Shown here: piece after piece, positions 19,659 to 24,443 of the stretch | How the letters are laid out: each line of letters begins with the position of its first letter | Numbering within the stretch: the first letter of the stretch is position 1 | Assembly: GCA_022827055.1 (NCBI GenBank) | Contig: JAJDTR010000129.1 | Location: forward strand, 1-64,000 | DNA length: 64,000 nucleotides | Origin: Candidatus Poribacteria bacterium | GTDB lineage: Bacteria; Poribacteria; WGA-4E; JAJDTR01 | Direction of reading: 5' to 3' | The notes under the pieces: model-generated | Told to the model about the DNA's origin: nothing | Database searches by the model: none | The model's input: the letters and a program-made list of their open reading frames with translations, nothing else | Program-made: the position numbers and the translations under genes

Positions 19659-19710
19659 GGCTTAAAGATTGAACAGTTTGTTTCAATCTTCAGCTCATGA
19701 AAGGAAAAAT

Positions 19711-22700
19711 ATGGAATCACGTTTCAAGCGATTGCTTGTTCTCATTGCCATTCTTGCTGTAATTGGCGGGTTTATCACTATCCTTGTGAAAATCTACCCG
19801 GACTTACTATGGTTTGGTGTTGTAGGCTACGGCTCGGTATACAAGAAGATTTTGCTTACAAAAGTGTTATTAGGGATTGGTATTGGCAGCTTTTTTCTTG
19901 TTGTTACGTTGCTTAACGTCTATTTGTTGTACCGATTTACTCCTAGTCGGCTTAGCCCGACGGTTATGGAGAGCATTCCCATTAGAGGAGAGGCTGATTT
20001 TGACCTGCGTCGACTAATCTATGGCGTACTAACACTCTTGGCGATAGGATTTAGCACGTTGATGGGTTATGCGGCGACGGACCGGTGGGAGCCTTTTTTA
20101 CGGTATTCTAATGCCGAAGGACTCGCGTTTCAGAATGCTACACCGCTCTTAGAGCCAGCAGGCCGTGATGCAACCGAGTTTTACATTTCTGAGCAAGAAC
20201 TAAAGGCTAAAGGCATGAAGGTCGGGGACTCGGTTGTCATCCAAGACGCGGGCGGAAAGACGAGTGCAACCATCCAATCCGTTCAGGCTCAAGTCGATGG
20301 TGTTGCAAGAATCCAATTGGACAAACCTTTAGGATTTGATGTGACGACGAATGCGGCGCTGATGGCGGCGGCACGCGATCCGATTTTTCAGAAGGATGTG
20401 AGCTATTATGTTTTTAAGATGCCGATCGAACGCTTCATCATTGGGAATCTATTTGGACTATTCATGTTGTTGACGTTCTTTTCTGTCGCCATTTATTTTT
20501 TTCATGGTCTACTCATCGGTGATAACAATCGTCTTTCCCCTCCGCCCCACGTGAAAAATCATCTCTTGACTCTTGGTGCATTGACACTGATATTCCGGGG
20601 TTGGAACTATCGTTTTGCAATGTATGATTTGCTTTACACAACGAATGACATTGTACGCGGCGGCGGCGGTTACGCCGCAATACACGCCCGCCTTCCCTTA
20701 TTGAAAATCCTCTTGGTGCTTTCGCTTCTTTGCGCCGCGGTTTTTCTAGTCAGCATTTTTCTAAAGCGACTCAGATACGCCCTCGGAGCATTTGGAATCT
20801 TTCTGATTGTTGGTCTGATTGGGCAAGTCTATCCGGCTGTTGTGCAGAAATGGCGTGTAGAACCGAACAAACAGGAACTTGAGACGGAATATATTAACTA
20901 TAATATCAAGGCAACACTGCATAGCTACGATCTGGAAGAGAACACGGTTACCGAAGAGGAATATCCCTTGACCGGTGAACTCTCGTACGATGGCGTTAGA
21001 AGCGAGGCAAATGCAGCGGTGATGAACAGCATTCGACTTTGGGACGAACGCCCCATCCAGCGGACTTTCCGACAATTGCAGGAGTTACGCTCACAATACG
21101 ACTTTCATGGTGTAGATATCGATCGGTACGCAGTAGAAGGCTCGCCGCGTCAAGTGATGTTATCCGTGCGAGAATTGAACATAAACGAACTTCCGCCTGC
21201 CGTTCGGAACGATTGGTTTAAGCGCACCTATGTGTACACGCATGGGTACGGGGCCGTGATGAGCCCCGTTAACGAGATTCTTGACGGAAAACCGAAAATG
21301 TACGTTCGGGATATCGATCCGGTTGATTATGAGCCCGAGTGGGATTTTCGATTCGGCGAAAACCCGGGACCTCGAATCTACTACGGAGAACGCACAAATC
21401 ATTATGTCATCGTGCATCCGGAGCGTACGGAGGAATTGGAATTTGATTACCCGACATCGTTTGGCGAAGATTTTGCCAAATACTCGTATCAAGGAAAGGG
21501 AGGAGTTAAACTCTCCACCTTCTGGCGCAGGTTTGTATACATGCTCAAGTTTGGTAACGAGTTCAAGTTTGTTCTTCCGGGGCCGATCGAGTCTAGCAGC
21601 CGAGTGCTCTATCATCGCAACATCAAGGAACGCGTCAACAAGGTAGCTCCCTTCCTCCGATATGATGGCGATCCATACGCGATCATCCATGACGGCAGGT
21701 TGGTGTGGATGCTTGACGCGTATACGACCACACACCGATATCCGTATGCGGCGCCGATGCAACACGCGCTACGCGCGGAAATTGCGGCGCAACGCGGCAG
21801 ACGGGTTGCCGGTCGAATTCAGGGCGGCGAGAAACCGTGGGGGAATTACATTCGCAATGCGGTAAAGGTTGTAATTGATGCTTATGACGGAAGCATAGAT
21901 TTTTATGTCATTGAGCGGGAAAAAGATCCGATTGTCGAGTGCTACCGCAGTATTTTTCCCGATTTATTCAAGCCTTTTGACACAATGCCTGAAGCACTCA
22001 AGAGGCATATCCGCTACCCGACCACCATGTTTCTTATTCAGGCGCGGATGTATCAGGATTATCATATGACGGATCCGGTTACATTCTATGCAAGCGAAGA
22101 TCAGTGGGAAATTGGGAAGGAGCTTTACGACAATACGGAACGTCAACGTTCCGCGCAGGCTGCGCCGGTGCCATCATCCCCGTTTGCGCAGCGTCAGGCG
22201 AGCCTACCTGAAACTGTCACAAACGTCCAGGAGGTAGCGCCTTATTATGTAATCATTAAATTGCCGGGAGAGGAACGGGCTGAATTCATGCTCATGTTGC
22301 CGTTTACACCCAAGAACAAACCAAACCTTACTGCTTGGTTTGCCGCCCGATGCGACCTTCCACAGTATGGCCAATTGTTAGTTTACCGGTTTCCCAAGGG
22401 GAAGCTCGCACCCGGACCGATGCAGGTTGAAAACTTTATCAGCCAAGAGCCTGAAATCTCCCAGCAGATTTCGTTGTGGGATAGTCAGGGTTCGCGCGTG
22501 CTGCGAGGCAATTTGTTGATTATTCCGATGAATGAATCCATCTTATATGTAGAACCCATCTATATTCAGTCGGAGGATGCGAAAACTGCAATTCCCGAGT
22601 TACGGCGGGTGGTCATCGGATACAAAGAGAACGTAGCCTGGGGGAAAAGCCTAGATGAAGCGCTGATTAACATGTTCGGAAAGAGTGTTGCGTCCGCTAC

Positions 22701-22926
22701 GGGAGGTCTCGTTAAAGTTGAGGTCGGTTCCGACATCATGCGTGCAGACGCACCGACGTTCGGCGAGACATCCGTTCGCGATTTGGCGAGTTTGGCGACT
22801 CAACACTTTCAATCAGCGCAGAAGGCTCAACGCGGCGGAAATTGGTCTGACTATGGAAGACATCTTAATCTATTGGAGCAAACTCTAAAGCAGCTGGAAG
22901 CCAATACACGGAAAGGAGGTGAATAG
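19711..22926 (+). CDS. UPF0182 family membrane protein
   Basis: 1071 residues. The N-terminal third has about seven hydrophobic segments (first: LLVLIAILAVIGGFITILV, followed by YPDLLWFGVVGY), then a large soluble extracytoplasmic region with WDERPIQRTFRQLQELRSQY and RYDGDPYAIIHDGRLVWMLD, both hallmarks of UPF0182/COG1615. A linker rich in Pro/Ser/Gln occurs near residue 805. Function is unknown in the family, which is known mainly from actinobacteria, cyanobacteria, clostridia and some candidate phyla. The start is ATG 19711 (AAAGGA upstream) rather than TTG 19669. Its last codons contain a perfect Shine-Dalgarno for the small selenoprotein candidate that begins 2 bases after its stop. Confidence 0.93.
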   Translation: MESRFKRLLVLIAILAVIGGFITILVKIYPDLLWFGVVGYGSVYKKILLTKVLLGIGIGSFFLVVTLLNVYLLYRFTPSRLSPTVMESIPIRGEADFDLRRLIYGVLTLLAIGFSTLMGYAATDRWEPFLRYSNAEGLAFQNATPLLEPAGRDATEFYISEQELKAKGMKVGDSVVIQDAGGKTSATIQSVQAQVDGVARIQLDKPLGFDVTTNAALMAAARDPIFQKDVSYYVFKMPIERFIIGNLFGLFMLLTFFSVAIYFFHGLLIGDNNRLSPPPHVKNHLLTLGALTLIFRGWNYRFAMYDLLYTTNDIVRGGGGYAAIHARLPLLKILLVLSLLCAAVFLVSIFLKRLRYALGAFGIFLIVGLIGQVYPAVVQKWRVEPNKQELETEYINYNIKATLHSYDLEENTVTEEEYPLTGELSYDGVRSEANAAVMNSIRLWDERPIQRTFRQLQELRSQYDFHGVDIDRYAVEGSPRQVMLSVRELNINELPPAVRNDWFKRTYVYTHGYGAVMSPVNEILDGKPKMYVRDIDPVDYEPEWDFRFGENPGPRIYYGERTNHYVIVHPERTEELEFDYPTSFGEDFAKYSYQGKGGVKLSTFWRRFVYMLKFGNEFKFVLPGPIESSSRVLYHRNIKERVNKVAPFLRYDGDPYAIIHDGRLVWMLDAYTTTHRYPYAAPMQHALRAEIAAQRGRRVAGRIQGGEKPWGNYIRNAVKVVIDAYDGSIDFYVIEREKDPIVECYRSIFPDLFKPFDTMPEALKRHIRYPTTMFLIQARMYQDYHMTDPVTFYASEDQWEIGKELYDNTERQRSAQAAPVPSSPFAQRQASLPETVTNVQEVAPYYVIIKLPGEERAEFMLMLPFTPKNKPNLTAWFAARCDLPQYGQLLVYRFPKGKLAPGPMQVENFISQEPEISQQISLWDSQGSRVLRGNLLIIPMNESILYVEPIYIQSEDAKTAIPELRRVVIGYKENVAWGKSLDEALINMFGKSVASATGGLVKVEVGSDIMRADAPTFGETSVRDLASLATQHFQSAQKAQRGGNWSDYGRHLNLLEQTLKQLEANTRKGGE

Positions 22927-22927
22927 A

Positions 22928-23209
22928 ATGGGATTGGATTGGAAACCGCGCCACCGGGATACGCTTATCGGGGACATTCCTTGGTTGGCACGAATCACCG
23001 ATAAGGCTAACGCTAAGTTGGCCGGCACAATCGGCGATTACATCTACCCGTGACCGCAAGACAAAAAGTTCCTGGAGGAACATAAGGTCAGTGCTGAAGC
23101 ATTTGTTGAAATGGTGAAAAAAAATCCTTCGGACGATGAGATGATTGCAGCGATGAAGTCGCTCAACAAGCCATCGAAGAAGCGCAAGTCAAAGAGCCGT
23201 AAATCCTGA
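22928..23209 (+). CDS. Candidate selenoprotein, DUF5069-like (in-frame TGA at codon 42)
   Basis: The frame opens at ATG 22928 behind AAAGGAGGTGA, a near-perfect Shine-Dalgarno, and runs 94 codons to TGA 23207-23209 with a single internal TGA at 23051-23053. The first part reads MGLDWKPRHRDTLIGDIPWL, ARITDKANAKLAGTIGDYIY and P; after the TGA it continues PQDKKFLEEHKVSAEAFVEM, VKKNPSDDEMIAAMKSLNKP and a Lys/Ser-rich tail. Both halves match what I remember of the small DUF5069 proteins (a DKARAKLAG-type helix, a GEY/GDY-x-Y-x-Cys-P-x-D turn, then FLxxxGIxAEEF and DDEV). The TGA falls on the Cys position, so selenocysteine is the simplest reading. A SECIS-like hairpin follows at 23068-23081. Alternatives are a nonsense mutation or sequencing error. 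Function is unknown; the family is small and cytoplasmic. It is translationally coupled to the UPF0182 gene. Confidence 0.72.
23051..23081 (+). promoter_or_regulatory. TGA (Sec) codon with SECIS-like hairpin
   Basis: Downstream of TGA 23051-23053, GTTCC (23068-23072) pairs with GGAAC (23077-23081) around the loop TGGA. The loop begins 19 nt after the TGA, has four bases and a G at its second position; these values fall within the loose bacterial SECIS rule (stem of at least 4 bp, small loop, G in the first two loop bases, loop about 16-37 nt from UGA). The stem is only 5 bp and also encodes FLEEH, so chance pairing is possible. Confidence 0.5.
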
Positions 23210-23357
23210 TGGGATAGCCGTAGTGCGTGAAAGTTTGCAATGGGAATCCAATGAAGAAGATTAGGTCGTTTATCAAGCACTCGACTGATCCGCTTCCGTG
23301 CGTTGCCTCCCGAACTTCATGCATTACGTCTCTCTTATTCTATGGGAGATTCTATTA

Positions 23358-24443
23358 TTGGAATTAAAAGATTTCCGCGAGCAGTTGGACGAGATTGACA
23401 ATCGGATATTGCTGCTGCTGCACAGTCGTGCCGAGGTGGTGCGGGAAGTTGGGCAGATCAAAGCGAAAACTGGCGTTGAAGACGTCTATGTTCCTCACCG
23501 AGAGACAGAGATTCTTGCTCGCTTGCAGGCAAAGAATCGCAACTACTTTCCCGCAGATGCATTGGACACAATCTTTTCCGAGATAATTTCCGCATGTCGA
23601 TCTTTGGAGAAACGTTTACGTGTAGCTTTTCTCGGTCCCGCGGGGAGTTTCGGTCATGAGGCGGCTCTTCGGCATTTTGGTTCGTCGGTTGAATTCACTC
23701 CGATTATGGATCAGACCGATGTATTTGCGGAGGTTGAATCGGGCGGAGCGGATTACGGCGTCGTCGCCATAGAGAACTCATCACGAGGGACAGTCCGCGA
23801 CGTTCTAGAGATGTTTGAAGTGACGACGTTGCAAATCTGTGCAGAGGTCTTGTTGCCGATTGACCAGAACCTACTGTCTTGCGCCCCAAGGGAGAAAATC
23901 ACCAAAGTTTATTCGCACCCACAGCCGTTTGCTCAATGCCGAGAGTGGCTACGCCAAAATCTGAGGGGTATTCGGCAGATTGAAGTCGCAAGCACATCGG
24001 AAGCCGCACACTTAGCCTCGGCAGAAGAGGGGGCCGCGGCTATAGCAAGCAAACTCGCGGCTGAAATCTACGGACTACAAACTGTCGATGAGTCTATCAT
24101 GGACAATTCGGACAATATAACCCGCTTCCTAGTGATTGGACGCCATATTGCGATGAGAAGCGGTCGAGATCGGACATCAATATTTATTGCCATCCAAGAC
24201 AAAGTTGGCGCTCTTTACGAAGTCCTCACGGTTCTTCAGAAGCACCAAATAAACATGAGTAAGATTGAATCAATGCCAGCCCAGACCAAGCCGTGGGAAT
24301 ACGTGTTTTATGTTGATTTGGATGGGCATATCGAAGACACGAACGTGCAGGCAGCACTACCAGAGCTTGAGAAGTTATGCATGCATGTCAAGATTCTAGG
24401 TTCCTATGCACGCGGTGCATCGCCGCAGGACAAATCAGTCTAG
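23358..24443 (+). CDS. pheA: Bifunctional chorismate mutase / prephenate dehydratase (P-protein)
   Basis: 361 residues, usual P-protein length. An AroQ-type chorismate mutase helix domain at 1-85 (FREQLDEIDNRILLLLHSRA, VREVGQIKAK). Prephenate dehydratase about 90-265 (VAFLGPAGSFGHEAA, YGVVAIENSSRGTVRDVLEM, NITRFLVIG). A C-terminal ACT domain binds phenylalanine for feedback control (DKVGALYEVLTVLQKHQINM, KIESMPAQ; the ESRP-type motif is present as KIESMP). It converts chorismate through prephenate to phenylpyruvate. The start is TTG 23358 with GGGAG about 9 bases upstream, giving the normal family N-terminus; an earlier GTG at 23298 would add 20 residues. Confidence 0.95.
   Translation: MELKDFREQLDEIDNRILLLLHSRAEVVREVGQIKAKTGVEDVYVPHRETEILARLQAKNRNYFPADALDTIFSEIISACRSLEKRLRVAFLGPAGSFGHEAALRHFGSSVEFTPIMDQTDVFAEVESGGADYGVVAIENSSRGTVRDVLEMFEVTTLQICAEVLLPIDQNLLSCAPREKITKVYSHPQPFAQCREWLRQNLRGIRQIEVASTSEAAHLASAEEGAAAIASKLAAEIYGLQTVDESIMDNSDNITRFLVIGRHIAMRSGRDRTSIFIAIQDKVGALYEVLTVLQKHQINMSKIESMPAQTKPWEYVFYVDLDGHIEDTNVQAALPELEKLCMHVKILGSYARGASPQDKSV

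Follow-up and report, generated by a model that had tools for sequence, protein, structure and literature searches.

The closest described relatives of the locus presented here are the bacterial selenoproteins, in which an in-frame UGA codon is decoded as selenocysteine (Sec) by the SelA, SelB, SelC and SelD set with the help of a hairpin, the bacterial selenocysteine insertion sequence (bSECIS). The published bSECIS consensus asks for a loop of 3-9 nt with G in the first two loop positions, a stem of 4-16 bp, a distance of 16-37 nt from the UGA and a minimum free energy at or below -7.5 kcal/mol (PMC13188914), and SelA and SelB have been reported in most symbiont bins of a sponge metagenome (PMC5649159). 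The DNA analysed in this work, hereafter the window, is a stretch of 64,000 nucleotides (positions 1 to 64,000 of contig JAJDTR010000129.1, assembly GCA_022827055.1) from a Candidatus Poribacteria bacterium whose genome is 5.57 Mb and 92% complete. A preliminary description had proposed that a small frame of this window, related to the DUF5069 family (Pfam PF16798), contains a Sec codon. We conclude that this gene, which we call DUF5069-U, very probably encodes a selenoprotein of a short DUF5069 subfamily with Sec inserted at UGA codon 42; the recoding of this codon as Sec, judged from sequence evolution together with the presence of the decoding machinery, would be a near certainty.

The Shine-Dalgarno sequence, the frame interrupted by a single TGA and the hairpin spaced 19 nt from it are all present where the preliminary description had placed them (Table 1), and an SD-like motif precedes 60 of the 62 distinct Sec orthologs. 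When the TGA is read as a residue, the frame matches PF16798 across this codon with 56.1 bits (E 5.6e-15), above the Pfam gathering cut-off of 27, which bears out its assignment as DUF5069-like. Taken separately, the stretch preceding the TGA aligns to profile positions 4-37 (E 1e-4) and the stretch following it to positions 42-83 (E 1.3e-3). As these are neighbouring segments of a single profile, both stretches belong to one gene. The protein spans only positions 4-83 of the 133 positions of PF16798, short of the full domain length, and is assigned as a short form of the family, the profile being matched by 18 of the 18 members of alignment A2. Furthermore, purifying selection acts on either side of the TGA: pooled over 62 sequences, the ratio of nonsynonymous to synonymous substitution rates (dN/dS) comes to 0.053 over codons 1-41 and to 0.101 over codons 43-80, or to 0.073 when the hairpin codons are left out, in line with the similar coding character first noticed on both sides.

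The second line of evidence is the exchange of Sec for Cys. Our phylum survey set comprised 85 Candidatus Poribacteria genomes, with counts tallied from the resulting table. An ortholog with exactly one in-frame TGA was found in 72 of them and a stop-free ortholog in six, all of family f7; among the loci read, 62 distinct ortholog DNA sequences have the TGA at codon 42. A scan of contigs gave 19 relatives, namely 16 from Poribacteria with TGA at codon 42, and two from Poribacteria and one from Bacillota with TGC. Every Cys form read has its Cys at the Sec position, where codon 42 is TGC or TGT (two YFYPC variants are known from translation), so that the TGA/TGC/TGT exchange anticipated between related genomes was indeed found, with Cys in Poribacteria f7 (loci L072, L073, L135, L140, L141 and L143), in Bacillota (L074 and L180-L184) and in the protein of known structure 3OMD. 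In Bacillota the Cys form (YIYPCPxD) occurs in 5 of 399 genomes, and none of these five carriers has an in-frame stop in its ortholog. The Sec and Cys forms of Poribacteria both precede pheA, which makes them positional orthologs, and a single change suffices to explain the Sec/Cys label on the pheA tree. The f7 genomes with the Cys form mostly retain SelA and a TGA-type SelD; their use of Cys is therefore not the result of a lost Sec decoding.

Codon 9 (22952-22954) also differs between these forms, being His9 (PRHRD) in all the Sec forms read and Gly9 (PRGRD) in the Cys forms of Poribacteria, with residues other than Gly in some Bacillota Cys forms. The association of His9 with Sec may reflect a coupling of the two residues, or it may reflect shared descent rather than function.

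The third line of evidence is the hairpin, whose loop UGGA, 5-bp stem and 19-nt UGA-to-loop distance satisfy the loop, stem, loop-G and spacing features of the bSECIS consensus. Its 14-mer is found at a single place in the window and never in shuffled sequences. To the published bSECIS model we added a test of synonymous-site freezing and covariation, and both were observed. Indeed, the hairpin codons F48 L49 E50 E51 read TTC CTG GAG GAA in 62 of 62 Sec sequences without one synonymous change, against a proportion of synonymous differences (pS) of 0.70 across the rest of the downstream part, and across the 53 Sec tips of the pheA tree they underwent no third-base change, to be compared with a mean of 9.6 at 27 other residue-invariant codons. 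In locus L068 the element reads ATTCC-TGGA-GGAAT, where the lowest core pair is changed on both sides, from G-C to A-U, in a compensatory manner, and the two outer pairs likewise vary on both sides. The hairpin does not form in the Cys forms examined, and a search of Rfam around the gene gave no relevant match. Taken together, the comparative evidence for this candidate SECIS is very strong. In the Cys form L135 (genome G083), TTC CTG GAG of the 5' half is retained while the 3' half is altered (AAG TAC) and does not fold; it is possibly a relic of a SECIS.

The machinery for Sec insertion is encoded by the same genome, where SelA (E 8.1e-154), SelB (E 4.8e-105) and tRNA-Sec (76 bits; identified by ARAGORN as tRNA-Sec with anticodon UCA) form a cluster of about 3.3 kb in contig C156. 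Over the phylum, SelA is present at E<=1e-60 in 72 of the 85 genomes, and in 64 of the 72 that have a one-TGA ortholog. SelD exceeds its family cut-off in 76 genomes out of 85, and exactly one in-frame TGA is found in each of these 76 (for example L151-L162), from which it follows that SelD is itself a selenoprotein in Poribacteria; most of the SelD genes inspected have a comparable hairpin (CC-loop-GG, with G in the loop) 16-17 nt past their TGA. With two selenoproteins that are nearly phylum-wide, SelD and DUF5069-U, the Poribacteria have cause to retain the genes of Sec decoding. In genome G089, the SelA frame (G089:C45:3759-4856) contains one TAA, due either to a pseudogene or to an assembly error; DUF5069-U and SelD of that genome retain their TGA.

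Table 1. Features of the DUF5069-U locus, in positions of the window.
Feature	Position	Strand	Basis and remarks
UPF0182 membrane protein, upstream gene	19669..22926	+	Pfam PF03699, E 4.7e-244; same neighbour in 57 loci
Shine-Dalgarno, GGAGG-type (AAAGGAGGTG)	22912..22921 (about)	+	Read from sequence
DUF5069-family selenoprotein (probable) coding sequence, 93 aa	22928..23209	+	ATG 22928, Sec codon 42, terminal TGA 23207-23209
Putative Sec-encoding UGA, codon 42	23051..23053	+	62 distinct orthologs share the TGA; Cys orthologs have TGC/TGT
Candidate bacterial SECIS hairpin, GTTCC-UGGA-GGAAC	23068..23081	+	Stem 23068-23072/23077-23081, loop UGGA 23073-23076
pheA (chorismate mutase/prephenate dehydratase/ACT), downstream gene	23298..24443	+	Pfam PF00800, PF01817, PF01842; neighbour in 58 loci

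The TAG stop of the UPF0182 gene ends 1 nt before the ATG of DUF5069-U, and pheA is a conserved neighbour of the gene whether it carries Sec or Cys. In two loci, the gene immediately upstream is a fusion of an N-terminal glutaredoxin (Grx) and a C-terminal pyridine-nucleotide disulfide reductase, which ends about 25 nt before DUF5069-U in L069 (L069:3749-4972) and has the same arrangement in L071 (L071:3625-4968). The full fusion of Grx with thioredoxin reductase (TrxR) is also encoded, unlinked, in the genome of the window (G000, C64:24817-26052) and in G001, G019, G021 and G082.

The putative Sec sits in a conserved Y-P-U-P-x-D turn, where the Bacillota homologues and 3OMD have Cys, and residues P7, R8, R10, D11, W19, R22, D25, K26, Y38, Y40, P41 and D45 are invariant. 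The predicted model is helical, with Sec placed directly before the helix 43-51, and 3OMD is its sole credible match in the PDB (TM-score 0.64; profile hidden Markov model E 7.1e-17); a search of PHROGs gave no meaningful match. The Cys-Pro turn had been attributed to DUF5069 relatives at large; it holds for the short YPCP/YPUP subfamily and for some other members but not for the family in general, as indicated by a paralogue with tandem DUF5069 domains, encoded in the genome of the window, that lacks this Cys. This paralogue (L035, G000:C102) is a protein of 434-441 aa with three tandem DUF5069 domains and no Cys at the YPUP site, and its gene is convergent to an open reading frame judged from its sequence to be phosphoribosylpyrophosphate-synthetase-like.

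The model we propose combines the decoding of the UGA with the chemistry of the residue inserted there. SelB carrying the Sec-tRNA(UCA) would recognise the hairpin at UGA codon 42, Sec would be inserted and translation would continue to residue 93. In the protein, Sec would act as a single catalytic nucleophile or redox centre, its pKa being lowered by the N-terminus of the helix, and an external thiol system, for instance Grx/TrxR, would return it to the reduced state. DUF5069-U has neither a further Cys or Sec nor a CxxU/UxxC motif, and without a second such residue it cannot form an intramolecular selenosulfide. The helical model, the single Sec and the Grx-disulfide reductase fusion found upstream lead us to infer that the protein works through its one Sec, as a redox or nucleophilic centre, with an external reductant. 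A redox role for Sec in DUF5069-U is, on this basis, somewhat favoured. The more precise proposal of a peroxidase-like single-Sec cycle with re-reduction by Grx/TrxR is tentative, and it is doubtful that DUF5069-U would found a new class of selenoenzymes, that of an all-helical, non-thioredoxin, single-Sec catalyst, nearly phylum-wide, reduced by Grx-TrxR and with His9 tuning the selenol.

Several observations weigh against this model, either in its decoding or in its catalytic part. The free energy of the hairpin is -11.0 kcal/mol over 45 nt from the UGA, but the 36-nt local element, at -7.3 kcal/mol, falls just short of the -7.5 threshold, and the folding of the single sequence (65 nt) is no more stable than that of shuffled sequences (z = -0.02). 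The proposal that the hairpin is a SECIS thus stands by the comparative evidence, on which the case rests because the folding energy alone is unremarkable and would not have established it. Likewise, the expectation of sel genes in the same genome was borne out for the clustered selA, selB and tRNA-Sec and not for selD, no copy of which exceeds the cut-off in this 92%-complete genome, where only a sub-threshold SelD-like paralogue was found; an assembly gap is the likely cause, since the congener G001 has a true SelD. As for the catalytic part, the confidence of the structural model is modest (predicted local distance difference test, pLDDT, 65; predicted template modelling score, pTM, 0.51), the linkage of Grx/TrxR to DUF5069-U was seen in family f3 only, and no redox gene was seen beside the Bacillota Cys loci.

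Among the alternatives, the one that best survives accepts the selenoprotein and places Sec in a structural or metal-binding role, as a selenium ligand or metal-handling site, rather than in a redox one. The single Sec or Cys, the missing CxxU/UxxC motif and a fold that is not thioredoxin-like are in keeping with such a role, whereas the position of Sec ahead of a predicted helix and the gene for the Grx-TrxR fusion that lies upstream in genomes of f3 would speak for redox chemistry, as does the fact that most selenoproteins with an assigned role are thiol-oxidoreductase-like or bear redox motifs (PMC13188914); we hold a non-redox Sec to be unlikely.

A second alternative would make the UGA and its SECIS mainly a selenium-dependent switch, in which a stop at codon 41 in the absence of Sec-tRNA would lower the expression of pheA by polarity or coupling. 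The place of the gene between UPF0182 and pheA, conserved in most loci, would suit such a device, but the Cys forms hold the same place before pheA without any UGA, a convergent selD stands downstream instead of pheA in G035, and the protein encoded past the UGA is under strong constraint, which makes a switch very improbable as the main role, though the element may have such an effect secondarily. The G035 locus (L177, G035:C116:26000-28300) has UPF0182 followed by DUF5069-U, with selD where pheA normally stands.

The reading of the TGA as a true stop, giving a 41-residue peptide followed by a frame remnant or a second small gene (by pseudogenization or sequencing error), is close to refuted and would have the faintest of chances. 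It is what a standard table-11 translation returns, ending at codon 41, as had been foreseen for standard gene callers, yet the TGA and the frame downstream of it are kept in 62 distinct sequences across the whole phylum, dN/dS in this downstream part is 0.07-0.10, the sequences before and after the TGA align to consecutive segments of a single Pfam profile and the Cys homologues translate uninterrupted. The possibility that the TGA is a read error was tested as well, and its presence in so many distinct orthologous sequences shows that it is not one; a truncated gene or a sequencing error is ruled out by these 62 sequences and the downstream constraint. For its part, a genome-wide reassignment of TGA to Trp or Cys, which would also leave the frame open beyond this codon, is the least probable of all, since TGA serves as an ordinary terminator here, closing 13 of the 30 long frames in the window, selB and the DUF5069-U gene itself, which excludes a general reassignment, and the genome has tRNA-Sec, SelA and SelB while the hairpin codons are frozen solely in the TGA-bearing orthologs.

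The preliminary description knew of no selenoprotein in this family, and this agrees with the inventory of May 2026, whose 119 families and subfamilies of prokaryotic selenoproteins do not include DUF5069 (PMC13188914). A scan of NCBIfam, whose library includes models to which the 2026 review refers for known selenoproteins, such as NF041374 for GOS_B, gave no match even at E 10. In the literature searched, with subscription papers, preprints and GenBank annotations lying outside the search, there is no mention of DUF5069 or PF16798, and no paper treats Poribacteria and selenoproteins together. On sequence grounds DUF5069-U is a new selenoprotein family, a statement that does not include a comparison with the 2008 family GOS_A (two Sec sequences), which has no listed domain and is not in the 2026 table. 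A family to which no function has been assigned, and of which one Cys-containing homologue has a solved structure (3OMD), would thereby join the known selenoproteomes, and the position of Sec, which points to a likely catalytic or redox-active residue, offers a handle on the function of DUF5069. Standard annotation, in which TGA counts as a stop, would truncate the DUF5069-U gene or miss it altogether.

In conclusion, the probable DUF5069-U selenoprotein resembles the bacterial selenoproteins of the SelA/SelB/SelC/SelD type by its in-frame UGA, its hairpin 19 nt further on with a 5-bp stem, its Cys homologues and a decoding gene set that is complete in the phylum, and differs from those known by belonging to none of the 119 listed families. 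Its helical model sets it apart from the thioredoxin-like selenoproteins, which combine a thioredoxin fold with a UxxC or CxxU motif, neither of which it has. With the SelD of Poribacteria, a member of a known selenoprotein family, it shares a TGA-encoded Sec and a similar hairpin, the two proteins being unrelated. Finally, 3OMD of Leptospirillum rubarum (PF16798) belongs to the same family by profile and by fold, and has Cys (YTYNCPLD) where DUF5069-U, in its short form, would have Sec.
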